A stretch of 61,835 nt of DNA from Eubacteriaceae bacterium (GTDB taxonomy: Bacteria; Bacillota; Clostridia; Eubacteriales; Eubacteriaceae): assembly GCA_012522805.1 (NCBI GenBank), contig JAAYJS010000032.1, positions 1-61,835 on the forward strand. Reading direction: 5' to 3'. The translations under genes and the position numbers were made by a program. Of this stretch, positions 17,175 to 47,230 are shown piece after piece. The notes under the pieces were generated by a model. That model worked only from the letters and a program-made list of their open reading frames with translations, did not search any database and was not told the origin of the DNA. Every line of letters begins with the position of its first letter. The stretch's first letter is position 1.

Positions 17175-17299
17175 CTCGGTCACTCGCCCTCATCGTTCAT
17201 TCAATTTAAGACCGTCATTAATGTGGGTTAAAGTATGATTTTATATAATAGTAATCGATTACTATTTATCAAATTATCATTTCAAGAATGGAGGACATG

Positions 17300-17716
17300 A
17301 TGAAAGGTTATACGATAAAGGAAATAAAAATTGGGGATAACGCAAGTTTCACAAAGACCGTTACGGAAACGGACGTGTACAATTTTGCCGGTGTATGCGG
17401 AGATTTTAACCCCGCCCACATGGACGAAGTACAAGCGGCCCAAACACCCTTTAAAACCAGAATTGCCCACGGTATGTTGGGAGCTTCTTTCATTTCGACG
17501 GTTTTGGGTGTGCATTTACCCGGACCGGGCACCATTTATTTAGGTCAAGAATTAAAATTTACGAAGCCGGTATATTTTGGCGACACCGTTACCGCCACCT
17601 GCACCGTCTCGGAAATCAATGAAGAAAAAAACATTCTGATCTTGGATACAACGGTAACCAACCAAGACGGAGATGTCGTCATTAAGGGGAAAGCAACGGT
17701 TATGCCACCGCGCTAA
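17300..17716 (+). CDS. phaJ: (R)-specific enoyl-CoA hydratase, MaoC-like (PhaJ type)
   Basis: 138 residues from the ATG at 17300, chosen because a GGAGG site lies 5 nt upstream (an adjacent ATG at 17297 is possible). The single hot-dog fold carries the hydratase-2 motif: YNFAGVCGDFNPAHMDE with the Asp and His, then GMLGASFIS. PhaJ hydrates trans-2-enoyl-CoA to (R)-3-hydroxyacyl-CoA, the monomer for PHA synthase. It converges on phaE-phaC, which supports the assignment. A butyryl or fermentative MaoC role cannot be excluded. Confidence 0.85.
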   Translation: MKGYTIKEIKIGDNASFTKTVTETDVYNFAGVCGDFNPAHMDEVQAAQTPFKTRIAHGMLGASFISTVLGVHLPGPGTIYLGQELKFTKPVYFGDTVTATCTVSEINEEKNILILDTTVTNQDGDVVIKGKATVMPPR

Positions 17717-17730
17717 ACAAAACTGCAATA

Positions 17731-17758
17731 AAAAAAACCGGTTTAAACCGGTTTTTTT
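17731..17758. terminator. Perfectly palindromic bidirectional terminator
   Basis: Seven A, the palindrome ACCGGTTTAAACCGGT, then seven T. It serves phaJ (plus) and phaC (minus). Confidence 0.9.
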
Positions 17759-17780
17759 TATTATAAACATCTGTATGATT

Positions 17781-18848
17781 TTATTTATCGTGATCTTTCA
17801 ACCATTTTCCGATGAAAGGTGCCACTTCCCTTTGGGAGCGACCGCTGACAAATAAGCCGATATGTCCTGTGGGATAACATTTAGTTGTCGTATCCAAGGA
17901 ACTGACATAGTCCTCTAAGGGTTTAGAGGCCGCATTGGGTACTTGGTGGTCTCTTTCCGCATAAACGTTGAGAAGCGGCATATTGATGTTTTTCAAATCT
18001 ACCTTTTCGCCACCTATTTCCATTTCACCTTTGATCAGTTTGTTCTCTTTGTACATACCATTGATAAACTCTTTAAAGGCTCTTCCAGCTTGATTGGGAC
18101 TATCAAAAATCCATTTTTCCATGGTTAGGAAATTATCCATGCTGCTTTCGCTGTCCAAGTCATCGATCAAGTCAAGGTATTTGTTGATAACTAGAGAAAT
18201 TGGTTTTAATGTTAAGAAGCCGGTGTTTAGAAAATCTCCCGGCAAGTTGCCGTAGGCTTCTACCATTTTATCCGCATTCAAGTATTTACCCCATTTGAAT
18301 AGCAATCCGTCATCGGTCGAGAAATCTACCGGGGTTACCATCGTAATCAGGTTTTTAACTTTTTTAGGATTTAAGGCTGCGTACATCACAGAGAACGTAC
18401 CACCTTGGCAAACACCTAAAAGGTTAATTTTATCTGTCTTGTGCTCTTTGCAAATAAAGTCAACACAATTGTCGATATACCCTTGAATATAGTCTTCTAA
18501 ACCGAGATAACGGTCGTCCGGTGTTGGGTATCCCCACTCGATCAGGTATAAATCGGCACCTTCATCCAGTAGGTTTTTGATAAAGCTTTTGTCTTCTTGC
18601 AAGTCCATCATAGCCGGTGTGTTGACTAGAGCATAGACGATGAGTGTCGGTACTTTGTTGGCACCTCTTTTAACTCTTTTTGTATAGTGATACAGTGTCA
18701 GTTTATCTTCTTGATAAACGATTTCTCTTTCAGTTCTATTCGAACCGTCACCCTTAATATTGACCATGGTTTCCAAGCTTTTCAGCATTTTTTTCTGGGC
18801 TTCCATGCCTTCTTCAAATGACTTTTTTATATCTAAAAATTGATTCAT
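17781..18848 (-). CDS. phaC: Class III polyhydroxyalkanoate synthase, catalytic subunit PhaC
   Basis: 355 residues, alpha/beta hydrolase fold. The lipase-like box is GVCQGG with the catalytic Cys at 147. The other triad members are Asp300 or nearby in YAERDHQVP and His329 in TGHIGLF; spacing matches class III synthases of about 355 residues. It polymerises (R)-3-hydroxyacyl-CoA on the granule surface and needs PhaE. It lies 31 bp downstream of phaE with a good AGGAGA site. Confidence 0.96.
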   Translation of the reverse strand: MNQFLDIKKSFEEGMEAQKKMLKSLETMVNIKGDGSNRTEREIVYQEDKLTLYHYTKRVKRGANKVPTLIVYALVNTPAMMDLQEDKSFIKNLLDEGADLYLIEWGYPTPDDRYLGLEDYIQGYIDNCVDFICKEHKTDKINLLGVCQGGTFSVMYAALNPKKVKNLITMVTPVDFSTDDGLLFKWGKYLNADKMVEAYGNLPGDFLNTGFLTLKPISLVINKYLDLIDDLDSESSMDNFLTMEKWIFDSPNQAGRAFKEFINGMYKENKLIKGEMEIGGEKVDLKNINMPLLNVYAERDHQVPNAASKPLEDYVSSLDTTTKCYPTGHIGLFVSGRSQREVAPFIGKWLKDHDK

Positions 18849-18879
18849 TCTAATCTCCTTTTATCCATTCGAATTCCAA

Positions 18880-20073
18880 TTATGCCTTTTTTGCTGGTTT
18901 CGCTTGCCCTGCTTCTAAGCTTTCTACTTTTTTCTTCAGTGTTTTCACTTCTTTCTTCAAAAGATAGATCGTTTTATAAACACTGTCGATCTTTGCATCG
19001 GTTACAATCGGCGTGGTTTCCAATTGTTTTTCTAACAATTTGTCACTTTCGATTTTGTAATCCATAAAGGCATCGGATAATTTTGCCAATAAAGCCGCAT
19101 ATTCGTCGGTATAGAAGTATTTTTCCAATTCTCCTTCTAATTGACCGCTCCAGTAATCATAAAATTCTTGGAAAGATTTCGGCTGCTCGCCTTTTTTAAC
19201 CAGTTCGATGTATGCATTGACCGCATCGTCAGATTGGGTACTTGCAATGTTGGTAACGGCAAAAGATGCTTCGGAGAACACCATGATCAGATCGATCATT
19301 TTATCTACCGCTTTATTTTGCTGTTCAATCAGCTCGCGATTGCTACCCATCACCGGTGATTTGATAAGCTCTCCGACAGTTTTGTCGTAATTTTCTTTCC
19401 ATATTTTAATGAAATCATTAAATTTAGCAGGATCTTTGATAGCCCCTTGGGCCAGCGCATTGATCATATCATCCATCGAATTTTTCCACGGTTCGGCAAA
19501 TCTTCCAAAGGTTTCCATGATAACCTGGATCAACTCATGGGGCGTTTGCACAAACGTTCTGAGTTCCGGTGGCATAATCGGCAATAGATTTTCTTTTAAG
19601 ATTTTATCGTATTGCTCTTTCAGCTCTTTTGATAATTTTTCCGTTTGCTCTGCACCGGGATCGATATAATATGTTTTGATGTCATCCCAAAATTTATGCA
19701 TCGCTAAATAAAATTGTTTGGAATTCATCATTTTTTCATAAAGTTCCAAGTTTTGTTTCGGCATCATATCGGCAAACTCCAACGGGTTGTAGGCGTCTGT
19801 CAATTCTTGCCATGCTTTTAAGGGCTCAAAATTCTCTGTAAAAGGCATTGCCGTTTTAGACATTTCCATCATTTGATTCCAATTATTCATCATTTGATTC
19901 CAATTGGTCATCAATTGTTGTTGCATTTGCATCCAATTGTTCATAGCGGACATGTCGGGAAACACGTTTTGACTTCCCTTCGCATCCTCGGTCGACGGCA
20001 TCATTTTTTGCCAACTATCCATCATCGTTTTTTGAGCATTCAGCATGTTCATCCAAATATTTTCTTGATTCAT
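18880..20073 (-). CDS. phaE: Class III PHA synthase accessory subunit PhaE
   Basis: 397 residues from the ATG at 20073, which has AAGGAGG 5 nt upstream; the open frame extends nine codons further. It is Met- and Gln-rich at the N-terminus (MQMQQQLMTNWNQMMNNW) and helical throughout. It ends in a coiled coil (IYLLKKEVKTLKKKVESL) and an alanine/lysine tail (QAKPAKKA) like PHA granule-associated proteins. PhaE forms the active heteromer with PhaC. Upstream, the 13-bp ATGAGTACCTTTA is directly duplicated (about 20088-20113). Confidence 0.92.
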   Translation of the reverse strand: MNQENIWMNMLNAQKTMMDSWQKMMPSTEDAKGSQNVFPDMSAMNNWMQMQQQLMTNWNQMMNNWNQMMEMSKTAMPFTENFEPLKAWQELTDAYNPLEFADMMPKQNLELYEKMMNSKQFYLAMHKFWDDIKTYYIDPGAEQTEKLSKELKEQYDKILKENLLPIMPPELRTFVQTPHELIQVIMETFGRFAEPWKNSMDDMINALAQGAIKDPAKFNDFIKIWKENYDKTVGELIKSPVMGSNRELIEQQNKAVDKMIDLIMVFSEASFAVTNIASTQSDDAVNAYIELVKKGEQPKSFQEFYDYWSGQLEGELEKYFYTDEYAALLAKLSDAFMDYKIESDKLLEKQLETTPIVTDAKIDSVYKTIYLLKKEVKTLKKKVESLEAGQAKPAKKA

Positions 20074-20233
20074 CATGACCTCCTTATAAAAGGTACTCAT
20101 TAAAGGTACTCATTTCTATAGATTTTTCAAGCTGAAACTATACTGTCTCTTCTTTAGAAAAATTTATCCTTTGAGTCACTTTTATTTCTTTCTTCTTGTC
20201 TTGAATTTAAGTAAATTTACGAAGTATACTATT

Positions 20234-20362: not shown

Positions 20363-20407
20363 AAAACTTCACAATACTACCATTCCATGGTAGCATTGTG
20401 AAGTTTT
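20363..20407 (-). terminator. Long hairpin, probable terminator of the VWA/AAA operon
   Basis: AAAACTTCACAAT-CTACCA (20363-20382) pairs with TGGTAG-ATTGTGAAGTTTT over about 19 bp, one mismatch, 5-nt loop. It lies 160 nt after the last gene of the VWA operon. The arms end in A4/T4, so either strand could terminate there. Confidence 0.7.
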
Positions 20408-20563: not shown

Positions 20564-22345
20564 CTAATTCGTGATGATTTGCTTGATGTATCGGATAACC
20601 ATATCCGCAAAGCGGTCAATGTTTTTGATGTAGACGAAATCCTTACCGTAGATCATTTTTTCGGCTTTCAGGTCCTTCTCTCTGCCTGTAAAGACACCTA
20701 ACACCATCACACCTTGTTGCCTTGCCCGACGCACTTCCATGGCCGTATCGACAATGGCTTCCCTTCCTCTGTAAACAGGAATATCGGTTTGAAGTTTTGC
20801 CTTTCCGACCTTGATATCGTTGGGGCGACCGTCGGATAATATAATCAGCACCTTGTTGTCCTCTTCTCGTTTGATGAGCTGCGAGACGATGGTGCGTATG
20901 GCTAAGCCGTCCCGGTTGTTGCCGGTACAATGGTATTCAAAAATATTGCTGTTCTCGCTGATACTGTCGTGGTAATCCCTGAAACGTTTGATGACGGTAT
21001 AATCTAAGAAAGAGCTGAATCCGTTAACCCGATTGGGTATGCCCGCCAAGGTCAGAGCTTGGCTGAGTACGTAGGCCTGTGCAGCCACTTTCGGTTGATT
21101 GCGCCGTTGGGACCCGCTGGAGTCGATCAGGATATCGACAACGAAATGTCCTTTGTCGTTATCGATGGATTGAACAAACAACTTATTGTTGTTACTCCGA
21201 CCCACCCGCCACAGGCGATTGGCAACCAACTGACCACTTCTGGATGAAATCTGATCGGAGGCCTCTTCTTGTACCATGGTGCGAATGAGGGAATCTCTGA
21301 GTTTGTTGATATTGCGCTGATGGACCCTTTTGTTGATGTTGTAAGCAATTTCGTTTTTAATTTTATTGCGTTTAATGTATTCCTGTTGGAAGCCGTTGTC
21401 GTTCTTCGAGCGCATGACACCGTCGGTCATGTGAATGCGACAGGTTTCGTGGGCATTGCGACAGAGTTTTTGCTGCATTCGCCGCACTTCCTCGATGGGC
21501 AAATAGGAATTGCCATAATAGAAAGAAACCTTTTCGTATATCTTTTCCAGGTCTTCTTCTTGAATTCTCAAAACCCGATTGTCGCTGATGGCTCCTGCCG
21601 TATTATCCAAACCTTCGTGGGCCAACATACCGTTGGATATGGCCTCCAATAATTCTTCCACCTGCTCGTCGGTTAAACTGTCTTCTTCGTCTTCATAATA
21701 TTCCTCAAGCATCCAATCGTTGAAGTCACTTTGGTTGAAGTCTTGTCCCTCATAACGGGCCTCCCTCTCCCCTTCTTCGTTGATTTGATACAATGGGAAA
21801 TAGCGCAGGTATAAATCTTGGATGGCTTTTAGAAGTGTTTCCGTATCCTCGATGTTCTCCAGTTCTTCTAAATCTCTGATCAGGTTTTGTGTTCTATGAT
21901 CCATGCGAACGCTTTTGCCAATCCGCTTTAAAACGATTCCGTGTTTAACGTCCTCTAAAAGATCGCCGGTGTGCATCTTATAAAAATTCGATACAATTGC
22001 CTCATAGGCTTTTTCTCGGATATCCACAACCCCCGGACGCTGGCGGATGACTTTTTCTTCTATCATGATATCCGTAGACAATTGCAATAGCGTCAACAAA
22101 ACATCCTTATCGAACCCCGCTTGCACTCGGGTTTTGATAAATTTTTTTACCTTGTTCCAATCGATATACAAACGCCTGGCACCGGCCGTCACCGCATGAT
22201 ATAGAGCAACATCTTTGGATATAAAACTCTTTTCGCCGATATCCATGTGGTCATCGTAACGACCGGACACCGTCCACATTAAGTTGGCAACCCTATTGTC
22301 AAAATCCGGATCTTCATATACCCATTTTACATTTTGATCTGCCAT
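20564..22345 (-). CDS. von Willebrand factor A-domain protein (CbbO/NorD-like), second paralogue
   Basis: 593 residues. The N-terminal ~250 residues are charged and helical, homologous to the other VWA protein of this operon (NLMWTVSG near the start; RRLYIDWNKVKKFI; RQRPGVVDI). A linker with a very acidic stretch (EEYYEDEEDSLTDEQVEEL) leads to the C-terminal VWA domain. This has the MIDAS motif in VDILIDSSGSQRRNQPK (DxSxS), GNNRDGLAIRT and IILSDGRPND. Such proteins tie an AAA ATPase to a metalloenzyme client. It is 11 bp downstream of the ATPase gene. Confidence 0.87.
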   Translation of the reverse strand: MADQNVKWVYEDPDFDNRVANLMWTVSGRYDDHMDIGEKSFISKDVALYHAVTAGARRLYIDWNKVKKFIKTRVQAGFDKDVLLTLLQLSTDIMIEEKVIRQRPGVVDIREKAYEAIVSNFYKMHTGDLLEDVKHGIVLKRIGKSVRMDHRTQNLIRDLEELENIEDTETLLKAIQDLYLRYFPLYQINEEGEREARYEGQDFNQSDFNDWMLEEYYEDEEDSLTDEQVEELLEAISNGMLAHEGLDNTAGAISDNRVLRIQEEDLEKIYEKVSFYYGNSYLPIEEVRRMQQKLCRNAHETCRIHMTDGVMRSKNDNGFQQEYIKRNKIKNEIAYNINKRVHQRNINKLRDSLIRTMVQEEASDQISSRSGQLVANRLWRVGRSNNNKLFVQSIDNDKGHFVVDILIDSSGSQRRNQPKVAAQAYVLSQALTLAGIPNRVNGFSSFLDYTVIKRFRDYHDSISENSNIFEYHCTGNNRDGLAIRTIVSQLIKREEDNKVLIILSDGRPNDIKVGKAKLQTDIPVYRGREAIVDTAMEVRRARQQGVMVLGVFTGREKDLKAEKMIYGKDFVYIKNIDRFADMVIRYIKQIITN

Positions 22346-22356
22346 GGCGCTACATC

Positions 22357-23271
22357 CTAAAAAATATCTTCAGATGTCCAGCTTTCGCGTATCCGGGTGC
22401 GTATGACGTCCTCTACGATTTCTTTTTCATAAATATCAAAAGTTTTTCCCGTAACACCCATGTTCACGGCTAAGACAGGCTTTAAGCCTCTTCGAATCGT
22501 GCGTAAACTCCCCATAATACCTCTTAAATCTACCGATTTAGTGGATATTTCCGAGTTCATCGCTTTTTCTTGAAGATCTAAAAAGATTCCGGCAAATTGT
22601 TCCAACATCTGAGGCTTGGCATCGGCGAATTCTCCCTGTAGGATAACCATGATGGTTTCTTGATCGATTTTAGGTATATCGATGGTCATAAAACGGGAGA
22701 CCAAAGCTTCGTTGAGTTCCTTCGTTCCGGCATATTCGTAGTTCATGGTGCCGATAAACCGTGTGGCGGGGTTGAGGGTAATCTTTTCATAACCCGGCAC
22801 ATCGATAATTTTCCGGTAATCCAAAGCGGAGTGCAAGACCACCAAGGCATCGTTTTTAGCCATGTTGATTTCGTCAAAAACACCAAACCCGCCATTAACG
22901 GCGCACTCGTAAACGGATCCTCTGCGCAAGCGCACTTCGTTATCGATAAAGGTATCGGTTCCGATTAAGCTGGTGCTGTCGGTATTAACGTGAAAAGACG
23001 TATTCCATTGTGGACGTTTAAAAAAATGGCAAATATTGTCAGCCAAAACGTTTTTGCCCGTGGCCTTGGGTCCGACCAAAAGTATATTTTCGCCTTCTAA
23101 AATGGCGCAAATGGCCATTTCCCAAATATCCTTTCCATAAAACAACGTGGTTGTTCCGGGAATTCTGTCTTCCAAATTTTTCTCAATAGGATGTTTTTTA
23201 ATGAAACTTTCGACATCATCCAACAATGCAGATGATACACCCTGTGTCTCTAGTTTTTTTCTCATGACCAT
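22357..23271 (-). CDS. MoxR/CbbQ/NorQ-type AAA ATPase
   Basis: 304 residues from the ATG at 23271, chosen for the GAGG site (the open frame runs 30 codons further into the upstream gene). Walker A reads LVGPKATGKNVLADN, with Asn instead of Thr/Ser after the Lys. Walker B is FGVFDEINMA, sensor 1 is FIGTMNYEYAG, and the arginine-finger region is ALVSRFMTIDIP. The family uses ATP to remodel or insert cofactors into client enzymes together with a VWA partner. It sits between two VWA genes. Confidence 0.88.
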   Translation of the reverse strand: MVMRKKLETQGVSSALLDDVESFIKKHPIEKNLEDRIPGTTTLFYGKDIWEMAICAILEGENILLVGPKATGKNVLADNICHFFKRPQWNTSFHVNTDSTSLIGTDTFIDNEVRLRRGSVYECAVNGGFGVFDEINMAKNDALVVLHSALDYRKIIDVPGYEKITLNPATRFIGTMNYEYAGTKELNEALVSRFMTIDIPKIDQETIMVILQGEFADAKPQMLEQFAGIFLDLQEKAMNSEISTKSVDLRGIMGSLRTIRRGLKPVLAVNMGVTGKTFDIYEKEIVEDVIRTRIRESWTSEDIF

Positions 23272-23284
23272 CTTTTTCCTCTTT

Positions 23285-24967
23285 CTAATCACTGGTGATG
23301 ATTCTTTTAATATAAGTGGAGACAATGTGTGCAAAATGGACAGGGTTTTTGGTGTAGACAAAATCCTTTCCGTAAATACGCTGCTCTGTCTCTAAGTCTG
23401 CTTCTTTACCTGTAAACACGCCCAGTACGTAAACCCCTGCTTTTCTGGCTTTTCTGACTTCCGTGGCGGTATCGGCCACACCGTGATACCCGGAGTATAA
23501 ACCGTGGCGCCTTTGCTTTGGCCCGATTTTTGAAACGATTTGCGCATCGTTGGGGATGCCGTCGGAGAGCACAACCAATAGCTTATTGTCTTCTTTCCTT
23601 TTCATCAAACTGTCAACCGCAGCCTTAATGGCCAGACCATCGCGGTTGCTGCCTTCGCATTGATATTCGAAGATGTGTTCGGTTTCTTTAATGGGGTCGT
23701 CAAAATCTCTGTATTGTGTAAAGACCGTAACCTGTAACATATTGTTAAAAGAAGCCACTCTGGTGGGCAACCCCGCCGATACTAAAGCAGCTGCCAAGAT
23801 GTACGCTTGGGTGGAAACCATTGCTTCCCGATATTGTTGGGAAGCGGAGCCATCCAACAATAAATAAATAACAAAGTCGCCTTCCCATTCTTTTTGTTTG
23901 CGGACAAACATTTTTCTGGGTTCCGTTCTACCCACACGCCAAGCTTTTCTGGCATTAAAAATACCGACATCCGCCGGGACCAAGTCCTCTTGTTTGGCTC
24001 GAATCAAATTGCGCAAAATCACATCTCTTGTTCTGTGAATTGTTTCGCGGTAAACCGTTTCTTTTGCCAAAAAAGCCTCAAGGTTTTTCTCTTTTTGTTT
24101 TGTCGCATACTGGATGCGCTTTTCTGCATCTGTACCACTTCTCAAAACACCTTTGGTCACATGCATCAGGTAACCCCTGTGAATGCCGCGACATAAAGCG
24201 CGTTCCCTCGCCAAAATCACATCGTCGGGCAATGCACTTTTTCCTTTAAAAAAAGATATTTGTTCCTTGACGTTGGCAAATCGATCGACATGAATTTCGC
24301 CACTTGCAGCGACATCGACAGTGCTTTCCTGTTGCTCTTCGAGTTCTTCTGCAAGGTCCTTTTCACCGTGGCGTTTGTAAAACCTCTCCAATGTTTTTTC
24401 GATGGACACTTCGCTTTGTCGCGACGGTGCCGGCCCCTTCGGTGGACCATAGCAATCTAAATAAAGCGATTCCACAAGAGCGAGCAAGTCTTTCGTCGTC
24501 TCTGCTTCCGCAGCGGATAGTATTTTTTTTACGGTATCCGACGGTGTGGGGTCTAATCCGGCCATGGTTTTAAACAATTGCTTTTCCAAGGGCCAGGCGT
24601 TGTAATCATCGGATAAGTGCTCATATAAATCTTGAGCTGCCATGATTTGAAGATCTATGACACCCGGCCTCTCGTCTGTGAGTTTTTTTCCGATATAAGG
24701 ATAAACCATCAGGCCCAATAATTCCGTCATTTTTGTTACATGGTAGCCCGCATTTCTCTTTTCAAGAATAAACTGCTCCAGCAATGGCCAATCCAGATAG
24801 ATTCTTCTACCACCGGCGATCAGCCCTGCGTACAGAGCCACATGGTCGGTGATGTATTTTTTTTCTTCTTCTTCGAGTTCTTCCTGAAAATCACCACAAA
24901 CCGTCCACATGAGATGTGTGGAACGTTGCTCTCGCAGATAGCTTTCGTCTTCTTCGTAGTAGGACAT
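23285..24967 (-). CDS. von Willebrand factor A-domain protein (CbbO/NorD-like), first paralogue
   Basis: 560 residues. The N-terminal region shares THLMWTVCG, RRIYLDWPLLEQFI and DERPGVIDLQ with the second paralogue. The C-terminal VWA domain has the MIDAS motif in VIYLLLDGSASQQYREA (DGSAS), SNRDGLAIKAA and VVLSDGIPNDAQ. It heads the operon, with GGAAGGGGGG before the ATG and a TGTGGTATACT element about 55 bp upstream. Coupling to the ATPase gene is tight. The paralogues are roughly a third identical by eye, so the duplication is old. Confidence 0.87.
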   Translation of the reverse strand: MSYYEEDESYLREQRSTHLMWTVCGDFQEELEEEEKKYITDHVALYAGLIAGGRRIYLDWPLLEQFILEKRNAGYHVTKMTELLGLMVYPYIGKKLTDERPGVIDLQIMAAQDLYEHLSDDYNAWPLEKQLFKTMAGLDPTPSDTVKKILSAAEAETTKDLLALVESLYLDCYGPPKGPAPSRQSEVSIEKTLERFYKRHGEKDLAEELEEQQESTVDVAASGEIHVDRFANVKEQISFFKGKSALPDDVILARERALCRGIHRGYLMHVTKGVLRSGTDAEKRIQYATKQKEKNLEAFLAKETVYRETIHRTRDVILRNLIRAKQEDLVPADVGIFNARKAWRVGRTEPRKMFVRKQKEWEGDFVIYLLLDGSASQQYREAMVSTQAYILAAALVSAGLPTRVASFNNMLQVTVFTQYRDFDDPIKETEHIFEYQCEGSNRDGLAIKAAVDSLMKRKEDNKLLVVLSDGIPNDAQIVSKIGPKQRRHGLYSGYHGVADTATEVRKARKAGVYVLGVFTGKEADLETEQRIYGKDFVYTKNPVHFAHIVSTYIKRIITSD

Positions 24968-25121
24968 GGTTTACCCCCCTTCCAATTAATTATGTGAATT
25001 TTAATGTATAGTATACCACAATTGTCATCCTTCAATCATTTAAAGATTGAGCGCTTACTTGAAGCTTGGTCGATGCTTAAAGGCCACCAATCCCCCATCT
25101 TCTTTTTTAATTGGAAATAAA

Positions 25122-25145
25122 AAGGATACCCCGAAGGGTATCCTT
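25122..25145 (-). terminator. Terminator of hom-lysC
   Basis: AAGGATACCC (25122-25131) pairs with GGGTATCCTT (25136-25145) across a 4-nt loop, with a T-run on the minus strand. Confidence 0.85.
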
Positions 25146-25171
25146 CAAACTGATTCGTATTTTGAATGAGT

Positions 25172-44699: not shown

Positions 44700-45515
44700 T
44701 TACAATCTTATTTCTTGACCTGTTGAAATATAGTCGATCGCCTCACCCATGATGGCCTTGAGTCTTTTATAGGGTTCAAGGCCTGTACAATGACCGGTGT
44801 AATACTTTGCTTTCGTATCGAGGAGGTATTCTCCGATGGTATCAATGACCTTGTTACCTTCTGCGGTACCGCTGAGATTGGATAAATGAAAACCGCCAAT
44901 CACAGCGTCGGGCATGCTGCCCTTCAGCTCGCTGTAATGCTCGAGGATATTGACAATGCCCTGATGGGCACAACCGGTTATTAATACTATTTTGCCATTT
45001 TCCTCGATGACCAAATTTTGTTCGTGGACAAAGTCATCTTCCACTATTTGTCCCTGGCGCTCGACCACCAAGCCCGATGGTTGTTGCGGCTTTTTCTGCG
45101 GAACTTCGGCAAATAACCAAAGTCCATCATCGATAGAATCCCGGTTGGATGTAAAAACCATCTGGGGATGGTTGTCGAAGCCTTCATCGAGACCGACTTC
45201 GTATTTTCCACCGGATTGCCTGAGAGCGTAGTGTTTTTCAAAGGCTTGCCGGCGTATATAGATCTTTGCTTTGGAATTTTCCTCTAAGAATGTCCTTAAG
45301 CCCCCACCGTGATCGTAATGACCGTGGGAGATGACGAGATAATCGATATCCGAGATCGAAACACCCATCTTTTCAGCATTCTCAAAGAACAATGGGCTGG
45401 CTCCCACATCAAACAACAATCGATGCTTTTGCATTTCTATATATAGGCTTAAACCGTGTTCGCACCCGTACATTTCCGAGTCCGACGTATTTTCAACTAA
45501 AGCTTTGATCAACAT
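44700..45515 (-). CDS. Metallo-beta-lactamase-fold hydrolase, MptA-associated (dihydropterin/RFA-P synthase-like) type
   Basis: 271 residues. Metal motifs: VISHGHYDHGGGLR (HxHxDH), ITGCAHQGIVNI, GGFHLSNLSG and YYTGHCTGLEPY. The nearest named group is the family annotated as 7,8-dihydropterin-6-yl-methyl-4-(beta-D-ribofuranosyl)aminobenzene 5'-phosphate synthase, a name borrowed from methanopterin synthesis and not proven here. It overlaps the upstream ATPase gene by 23 bp. Confidence 0.85.
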   Translation of the reverse strand: MLIKALVENTSDSEMYGCEHGLSLYIEMQKHRLLFDVGASPLFFENAEKMGVSISDIDYLVISHGHYDHGGGLRTFLEENSKAKIYIRRQAFEKHYALRQSGGKYEVGLDEGFDNHPQMVFTSNRDSIDDGLWLFAEVPQKKPQQPSGLVVERQGQIVEDDFVHEQNLVIEENGKIVLITGCAHQGIVNILEHYSELKGSMPDAVIGGFHLSNLSGTAEGNKVIDTIGEYLLDTKAKYYTGHCTGLEPYKRLKAIMGEAIDYISTGQEIRL

Positions 45516-46392
45516 TTTTTACATATCCTTTCCCTAAGAGAAGTCCCATCGTTTTTTGATAAACTTCCCGTACCGCCCTTCCGGAAATACAATCGACGTC
45601 TACGATCAGCCGGCCGTTGTTGATCGCCTTAACAGCTTCGGTATCGTAGGGGATTTTACCGACAAAGGGCAATCCCGACTCTTCGCAGAACTTTTCAATT
45701 TTTTCTGTGTGCTTTGGGTTGATGTCGTATTTATTGACACAAATGGCGATTTTGGTTCCAAACTTTGCCGCCGTGTTGACAATACGCATCATGTCGCTAA
45801 ACCCCGATGCAGTCGGTTCCGCTACGATTAACACTAGGCTCACACCGCTCACCGATGCGATAACCGGACAGCCGATACCGGGAGAACCGTCGATGATGGC
45901 CAAGGGCACATCGCCTGCTGCACGCCTTATTTGTTTTTTAACCTCCGTTACCAGCTTACCGGAGGTACCGCTACCCATTTTAAGTTGTGCGCTTGAAAAC
46001 GTCTTGTGTTTGTCTTTGTACAGCATCAATTCGCCGGCTACCGCCGGCACCAATGCAACTGCCTTTTCCGGACAGACAGCGACGCAAACCCCACAACCTT
46101 CGCAAGCATAGCGGTTGACACTGTGGGTTTCTCCTTGAACGATGGCATCGAAGCGACAATGTTCTCTGCACCGGTCGCAGCCGGTACACTTTTCAGGGTT
46201 TATTTTGGCATGGGGCATTCCATAATAGTCCGTTTTTTCGGGCTCGGATTGCCACCCGGCAACGAGGTGCAAATTAGGGGCATCGACATCGCAATCGGCA
46301 TACGCCTCGGCCTTTGCCAGTTTGATAAATGCACTTGCCACGGTGGTTTTACCGGTGCCGCCCTTACCGCTCAGAATGAGCAATTGTTTCAC
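45493..46392 (-). CDS. MinD/Mrp-superfamily ATPase with inserted 2[4Fe-4S] ferredoxin domain, copy 1
   Basis: 299 residues. Deviant Walker A LSGKGGTGKTTVA at the N-terminus. The ferredoxin insert at about 58-110 has CTGCDRCREHC and CEGCGVCVAVC. Then AIIDGSPGIGCPVIA (switch II) and LIVAEPTASGFSDMMR. The family uses ATP and Fe-S centres in cluster carriage or redox assembly. It overlaps its paralogue by 29 bp and the MBL gene by 23 bp. Confidence 0.92.
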   Translation of the reverse strand: MKQLLILSGKGGTGKTTVASAFIKLAKAEAYADCDVDAPNLHLVAGWQSEPEKTDYYGMPHAKINPEKCTGCDRCREHCRFDAIVQGETHSVNRYACEGCGVCVAVCPEKAVALVPAVAGELMLYKDKHKTFSSAQLKMGSGTSGKLVTEVKKQIRRAAGDVPLAIIDGSPGIGCPVIASVSGVSLVLIVAEPTASGFSDMMRIVNTAAKFGTKIAICVNKYDINPKHTEKIEKFCEESGLPFVGKIPYDTEAVKAINNGRLIVDVDCISGRAVREVYQKTMGLLLGKGYVKNVDQSFS

Positions 46393-47230
46393 TATGCACC
46401 TCCTTTTGAATTGTTTTCAACAAATCTGAAAACATCGCGCGGTATGTCTCATCTGTTCGAACGGCAATTTCACCATTGGAGTTGAGCTCTGCCAAAATAT
46501 GGTCAAAGGGAATGCGGCTTAATATTTTGATCTTCTTGTCTCGACAAAATGTTTCCGCCGGGTTTTCCGAATCAATGCTCTTATTGATGACCACCCCATA
46601 TGGGACATCCAATAATTGCACCAGCTCGTAAACCATCTGAAGGTTGTGAACACCGAACAAAGTCGGCTCTGCTACCAAAACGCAATAATCCGCACCTTGT
46701 ATGCTTTCCATAACTGAACAAGCACTGCCGGGTGGGCAGTCGATCAACGTCCAATCCTCTTTCTGAGTCGGATTGTTTGACAGCAATAGTTTGATAATCG
46801 GTATACCTGAGACTTCGCCGATGTTTAAGATACCGGTGTGTACCGTTACCCCGTCGGAGCTTCCCTTTTCGATATTGCCGATGACTTTGTTTTCCTCGGT
46901 CAAGGCTTTTTGCGGGCACAACAAGCTGCATCCGCCGCAGGAATGACAAACCTCATCAAAAATAAATAATTTGTCTTTGATGTAGGCAAGGGCGTTAAAT
47001 TTACAAAACTCAACGCATTCTCGACAACCGTTACAAAGCTCGGCGTTCCATTTCGGAATTTTAACCGCTACCGGCTGCTTTTGAGTGTTTTTCGGCTTGA
47101 AAAACAAATAACCGTTGGGTTCCTCCACATCGCAATCGATGTAGGTTGCCGTTTTTGCCACAGCCGCCAAATTAACCGATACCAGTGTTTTCCCTGTGCC
47201 ACCCTTACCGCTGAGCACAGCTATTTTCAT
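46364..47230 (-). CDS. MinD/Mrp-superfamily ATPase with inserted 2[4Fe-4S] ferredoxin domain, copy 2
   Basis: 288 residues. Walker A LSGKGGTGKTLVS, ferredoxin cysteines CNGCRECVEFC and CHSCGGCSLLC (about residues 63-103), then LIDCPPGSACSVME and LVAEPTLFGVHNLQ. It is the paralogue of copy 1; two such ATPases side by side match the ORP-type operon of Desulfovibrio, where both join one complex. Starts directly after the NifX protein 2 stop. Confidence 0.92.
   Translation of the reverse strand: MKIAVLSGKGGTGKTLVSVNLAAVAKTATYIDCDVEEPNGYLFFKPKNTQKQPVAVKIPKWNAELCNGCRECVEFCKFNALAYIKDKLFIFDEVCHSCGGCSLLCPQKALTEENKVIGNIEKGSSDGVTVHTGILNIGEVSGIPIIKLLLSNNPTQKEDWTLIDCPPGSACSVMESIQGADYCVLVAEPTLFGVHNLQMVYELVQLLDVPYGVVINKSIDSENPAETFCRDKKIKILSRIPFDHILAELNSNGEIAVRTDETYRAMFSDLLKTIQKEVHSETIAHSER

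Follow-up and report, generated by a model that had tools for sequence, protein, structure and literature searches.

Which enzyme is served by a MoxR-type AAA+ ATPase that is encoded between two genes for VWA proteins, with no obvious client beside it? The question is raised by a compact minus-strand operon on contig C18 of a 2.0-Mb genome (G000) of a Eubacteriaceae bacterium. The whole stretch of 61,835 nucleotides that was analysed is referred to as the window.

Operon structure and domains

The operon has the order VWA1 (23285..24967, 560 aa), MoxR-type ATPase (22357..23271, 304 aa) and VWA2 (20564..22345, 593 aa). An earlier note on this DNA had placed one MoxR-like ATPase between two VWA genes, and the three minus-strand open reading frames bear this out. 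An ATPase frame of 334 aa, initiated at a TTG, would start within VWA1. Since the ribosome-site-like sequence AGGAAAAAG precedes an ATG at 23271, 13 bp past the VWA1 stop, the gene was set to the shorter frame. After this correction, gaps of 13 bp (VWA1/ATPase) and 11 bp (ATPase/VWA2) separate the genes. Two terminator-like hairpins on the minus strand, both consensus matches only, flank the operon: one follows the upstream aspartokinase gene (25121..25146) and marks the 5′ limit, the other, with 20 pairs, follows VWA2 (20363..20407) and lies between the operon and phaE-phaC, located downstream on the same strand. The statement that a client is absent nearby was right in substance, as phaE-phaC stand behind this hairpin and are missing at this site in relatives. 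The region 17288-20100 holds phaE-phaC, which encode a class III PHA synthase, and a convergent gene for a MaoC-type hydratase, in an acetogen-like genome.

The ATPase matched the AAA_5 domain (PF07728) at 8.6e-20, above the cut-off, and has a Walker B motif DEIN; its sequence relatives in the PDB are midasin (1.6e-29), CbbQ (6e-8) and NorQ (3e-7). It adjoins a MIDAS-bearing VWA protein, a pairing conserved in relatives, and can be classed as a MoxR-like AAA+ protein with a VWA partner. Its Walker A motif GPKATGKN (23050..23073, minus strand) has the Asn after the Lys that was pointed out earlier. This residue is a family trait, with Asn in 99 of 103 family ATPases and Ser in three, and as such it speaks against a dead ATPase.

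Both VWA proteins exceeded the cut-off for CobT_C (PF11775)/VWA. The MIDAS motifs known from the earlier note are intact, as are the further MIDAS elements: VWA1 has DGSAS (23840..23854, minus strand; D372, S374 and S376 invariant in the VWA1 alignment A3), GSNRDG and LSDGIPND, and VWA2 has DSSGS (21110..21124, minus strand; D408, S410 and S412 invariant in the VWA2 alignment A2), GNNRDG and LSDGRPND. The fast-evolving VWA1 shares 34-35% identity with VWA2 over almost the full length, so the two are true paralogues with a common N-terminal module, as had been proposed. The finger region and a C-terminal YIKxIIT are kept by both.

Comparison with known MoxR/VWA systems

VWA2 and VWA1 were modelled with AlphaFold2 (mean pLDDT 78 and 79, respectively). 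In both models an N-terminal helical domain is followed by a low-confidence linker, which is acidic in VWA2, a helical region and the C-terminal VWA domain. The best structural match of both models was the finger and VWA domain of NorD, with Z 23.6 over 266 residues (rmsd 4.0) for VWA2 and Z 23.9 over 265 residues (rmsd 3.9) for VWA1. The matched NorD span (347-638) includes the finger (403-448), and both models have a NorD-like finger plus VWA fold. Together with the domain matches, this supports the earlier assignment to the chaperone-type MoxR/VWA systems, with NorQ/NorD and CobS/CobT as relatives.

NorQ/NorD, which inserts FeB into cNOR, likewise combines a MoxR-class ATPase with a VWA protein composed of N-terminal domain, linker, finger and VWA. 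It differs from the system described here in sequence (about 21% identity) and in setting, as the correlate here is acetyl-CoA synthase (ACS) in strict anaerobes and the client module is usually unlinked. By eye, no norCB genes were recognised among the listed neighbours of the relatives' loci. The aerobic cobaltochelatase CobS/CobT is resembled in the CobT_C match and in cobalt-related neighbours in some relatives; membership of CobT was rejected, the scores for TIGR01651 (25 and 19 bits) being far below the cut-off of 759. Midasin (Rea1/Mdn1), the top PDB sequence match of the ATPase, also matches the VWA MIDAS domain strongly, but is one giant eukaryotic protein working on ribosomes. A distant MoxR plus VWA pair of Bacillus beside sucA/odhB, which we take to be of the YojN/YojO type, has an ATPase 31% identical to that of the window; its Walker A reads GKT, however, and it lacks an ACS context. 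An identity as GvpN (gas vesicle) was rejected (TIGR02640, 39.3 bits vs. a cut-off of 266.8), and so was a defence system: the PADLOC search gave no convincing match, the ATPase reaching just 0.009 with TRIP13.

Co-occurrence with acetyl-CoA synthase

Within the order, 67 genomes were compared, of which 40 were found by the VWA2 search at a loose threshold and 38 as close matches. The ATPase-VWA2 pair and full-length ACS were both present in 37 genomes and both absent from 28, while one genome had the pair only and one ACS only (Fisher p=1.4e-16, genomes taken as independent), an agreement in 65 of 67 genomes. The pair-only genome (G027) is 83% complete; the ACS-only genome is G010. For the better genomes of the order the counts were 29/0/1/18 (both/pair only/ACS only/neither), and at genus level 12/0/1/13 (p=3e-6). 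Moreover, G003 lacks both the pair and ACS, whereas its congeners G001 and G002 have both. The genus-level counts and this joint absence reduce, but do not abolish, the concern over kinship of the genomes.

Other genes fitted the distribution of the pair in the order less well (CODH, p 3e-11; DUF1638, 4e-7; glutamine synthetase III, 5e-4). CODH was rejected as client, because seven of the eight CODH-positive, ACS-negative genomes are without a close pair (G018, G050, G052-G054, G061, G062); the eighth is the incomplete G027. Generic RACo and DUF1638 were dismissed as partners since ACS matches the distribution of the pair better.

The ATPase family was detected in 32 of the 391 genomes of a class-wide sample. 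ACS was present in 15/15 genomes with a VWA2-type VWA vs. 1/17 with a divergent VWA, a split made by VWA similarity, but drawn up after the ACS results were known, and with G016 and G017, whose short loci cut the gene, assigned from the VWA2 search of the order. The VWA, more than the ATPase, thus follows ACS. Among named genomes chosen solely for a close ATPase, 46 of 50 had full-length ACS, including Clostridioides difficile, Terrisporobacter, Romboutsia, Fusicatenibacter and Blautia-type genomes; the four without detectable ACS (L072, L105, L120, L124) are all MAGs. Of 72,556 plasmid-collection records, one from Acetoanaerobium noterae had both the best-matching ATPase and the sole ACS. This entry (NZ_CP154629.1, 2.63 Mb, 4 annotated features) is labelled plasmid in PLSDB and looks like a chromosome.

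The search for a recurring client metalloenzyme among homologues, which the earlier note had suggested, therefore led to ACS and its module, mainly by phylogenetic profile. The co-occurrence agrees with an accessory role in the Wood-Ljungdahl pathway. It falls short of proof of interaction, and ACS is treated here as a candidate client. Because ACS (AcsB) and the corrinoid iron-sulfur protein (CoFeSP, AcsCD) co-occur in the genomes examined, the profile cannot choose between a nickel and a corrinoid step.

ACS without the pair was found in six genomes (G010, G489, G514, G600, G700, G753), two of them incomplete, and hence the pair is not universally required for ACS. In G600, a CoxD/CoxE-type pair (PF07728, PF05762), also MoxR plus VWA but with a VWA of another family, is the direct neighbour of acsE in the acs cluster (L208:1-2086, contig C9). 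It could be a functional substitute, but this is a single case, and no such pair lies close to the similar cluster of G700. No other MoxR/VWA genes were found within ~18 kb on either side of the acs clusters of G010 and G700, in the sequence read around the acs cluster of G753 or on the short G514 contig.

Gene neighbourhoods

No universal neighbour of the pair was found among the relatives' loci. In most genomes the pair is not close to the acs cluster, and this is also true of the window genome (pair on C18, acs on C8/C40). A direct linkage exists in genus g5 (G047, G048), where acsC-acsE-acsA-cooC-acsB-His-rich-DUF3842-VWA2-ATPase lie on one strand, the His-rich gene encoding a product of 124 aa. 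As the His-rich gene and DUF3842 also follow acsB in Eubacterium and Acetobacterium, there without the pair, the linkage in g5 is an extension of an established acs cluster. Two MinD-type genes, one of them 54% identical to CooC of g5, are located just upstream of the pair in an A. woodii-like MAG.

Genes related to cobalt and corrinoids adjoin the pair in several lineages, namely cbiM-cbiN-cbiQ after it in Peptostreptococcaceae, cobT-cobU-cobS ahead of it in Terrisporobacter, and an operon for a corrinoid protein, URO-D and methyl-THF methyltransferase directly upstream in G006. Corrinoid genes are abundant in acetogens, and these neighbourhoods may therefore be partly due to chance. Lachnospiraceae have lepA-hemW or type III glutamine synthetase as neighbours; both were rejected as partners, being local to this lineage, and the glutamine synthetase occurs in most genomes of the order.

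Two further observations concern individual genomes. The second of two ACS genes in the window genome (L204:6696-9617, contig C8; about 973 aa) is extended at its N-terminus, ahead of the ACS domains, by a long His-rich stretch, which resembles the separate His-rich gene after acsB in relatives. In two Romboutsia-type genomes (L073, L079, 12806-14462) the pair is followed by a gene for a prismane/hybrid-cluster protein, a member of the CODH superfamily.

Origin of VWA1

The earlier note had laid weight on the presence of two VWAs. As a defining feature of the system this did not hold, since most relatives (Acetobacterium, Lachnospiraceae, Peptostreptococcaceae) have the ATPase with one VWA, and the unit conserved across Clostridia is the ATPase plus one VWA2-type protein. 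Homologues that can do with one VWA are what the note itself had named as counting against a two-VWA machine. Among the loci read, the order VWA1-ATPase-VWA2 recurs only in the genus Eubacterium (L042-L044, L062), so that having two VWAs appears to be a derived trait of this lineage. In a quick VWA tree, for which the tool warned of long branches, VWA1 had a very long branch and fell into a strongly supported clade of 10 rows, which is limited to Eubacteriaceae and adjoins the VWA2 clade of this family. We infer that VWA1 is a later, optional copy that arose by duplication within Eubacteriaceae and is used by the ATPase as an alternative adaptor.

In Acetobacterium and the genus of G048, members of the VWA1 clade adjoin genes for MttB, corrinoid proteins, RACo or DUF1638 (L150, L156, L153/L154), at L150 and L156 without an ATPase gene alongside. 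VWA1 possibly has a role in other corrinoid methyltransferase systems. A second VWA-ATPase pair of Eubacterium (L151:7918-14150, contig C4 of G042), the VWA of which also belongs to the VWA1 clade, lies beside an arsenic operon of the ArsA/ArsD/ArsR-like type, with an integrase gene close by.

Proposed function and alternative explanations

In acetogens, some of them industrial gas fermenters, ACS and its cobalt protein have a central place in the Wood-Ljungdahl pathway. To our knowledge, the building and repair of the metal centres of these two proteins is only partly understood. The ATPase and its adaptor, whose job was previously unassigned and which are almost confined to bacteria in which the nickel enzyme ACS forms acetyl-CoA from CO2, probably help to build or repair ACS or its cobalt-protein partner. 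More specifically, we consider it fairly probable that the ATPase and VWA2 form an ATP-driven remodelling chaperone of the NorQ/NorD kind, with the ACS/CoFeSP (AcsB/AcsCD) module of the Wood-Ljungdahl pathway as client.

The NorQD hexamer has a single pore, which is filled by one VWA finger; the C-terminus of NorD touches the ATPase, and rotation remodels the linker, which results in iron insertion (PMC13036017). The ATPase and the VWAs of the window may share this working principle. The VWA finger would enter the pore of the MoxR ring, ATP hydrolysis would turn the VWA, and linker and N-terminal domain would then tug at a docked client, so that nickel (A-cluster) or a corrinoid could be inserted, exchanged or reactivated. 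Client binding and the metal step are proposed here by analogy, with either ACS or CoFeSP as the protein that would be touched. AcsF/CooC are also ATPases thought to insert nickel in CODH/ACS, and that they are already known for this step in the literature counts against the proposal. They are of the MinD/ParA type and not AAA+ proteins, and are encoded by a separate gene within the same acs clusters.

It is possible, if somewhat unlikely, that ACS is a mere correlate and the true client a corrinoid protein (CoFeSP, and others via VWA1), which would be loaded with, relieved of or reactivated in its corrinoid. The presence of CoFeSP together with ACS would be in line with this, and so would the cobalt and corrinoid genes next to the pair and the proximity of VWA1-clade proteins to MttB, corrinoid proteins, RACo and DUF1638. 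The position of the g5 pair after acsB, a His-rich (CooJ-like) gene and DUF3842 rather suggests nickel, and generic RACo and DUF1638 follow the pair less closely than ACS. Rather doubtful, in our view, is a chaperone of strict anaerobes with a general role, for metalloproteins or under stress, and linked to ACS solely through common ancestry and lifestyle. The mainly housekeeping neighbours, such as lepA-hemW and type III glutamine synthetase, and the occurrence of the wider family with divergent VWAs in other families without ACS would fit such a chaperone. It is opposed by the association with ACS in several lineages (Eubacteriales families, Peptostreptococcaceae, Lachnospiraceae), by the joint absence within the genus of G003 and by the poorer fit of CODH, glutamine synthetase III and DUF1638.

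A single mixed complex of both VWAs and the ATPase appears quite improbable: the operon-like gene order is kept in Eubacterium (L042-L044), but most relatives have one VWA, some VWA1-clade genes have no ATPase gene next to them (L150, L156), and in NorQD each pore takes one finger (PMC13036017). With one pore per ring, alternative use of the VWAs is likelier, and the VWA1-clade genes in corrinoid methyltransferase clusters further favour two clients over a mixed complex. Tentatively, acetogens may possess a hitherto unnoticed ATPase machine with swappable adaptors, VWA2 for maturation or repair of ACS/CoFeSP and VWA1-clade proteins for corrinoid methyltransferase systems. As for PHA granule synthesis, phaE-phaC are adjacent to the operon of the window on the same strand; given the intervening hairpin and the finding of phaE or phaC in none of the relatives' neighbourhoods, a role of the pair in this process is very improbable indeed.

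The suggestion that the system is undescribed agrees with the literature searched, in which no published description was found. Acetobacterium and MoxR were not mentioned together there, papers naming acetyl-CoA synthase and MoxR looked unrelated by title and abstract, and a paper on the acetogen core genome (PMC5039349) mentions neither MoxR nor VWA. Clostridioides difficile, Terrisporobacter and Blautia-like gut bacteria also carry the candidate ATPase-driven helper, which could be of use in producing active ACS in a heterologous host. VWA1 and VWA2 would offer an example for the study of alternative client adaptors on one AAA+ ring.

Elsewhere in the window (44700-47230), two adjacent MinD-type ATPases with embedded ferredoxin motifs are encoded, together with an MBL-fold protein.
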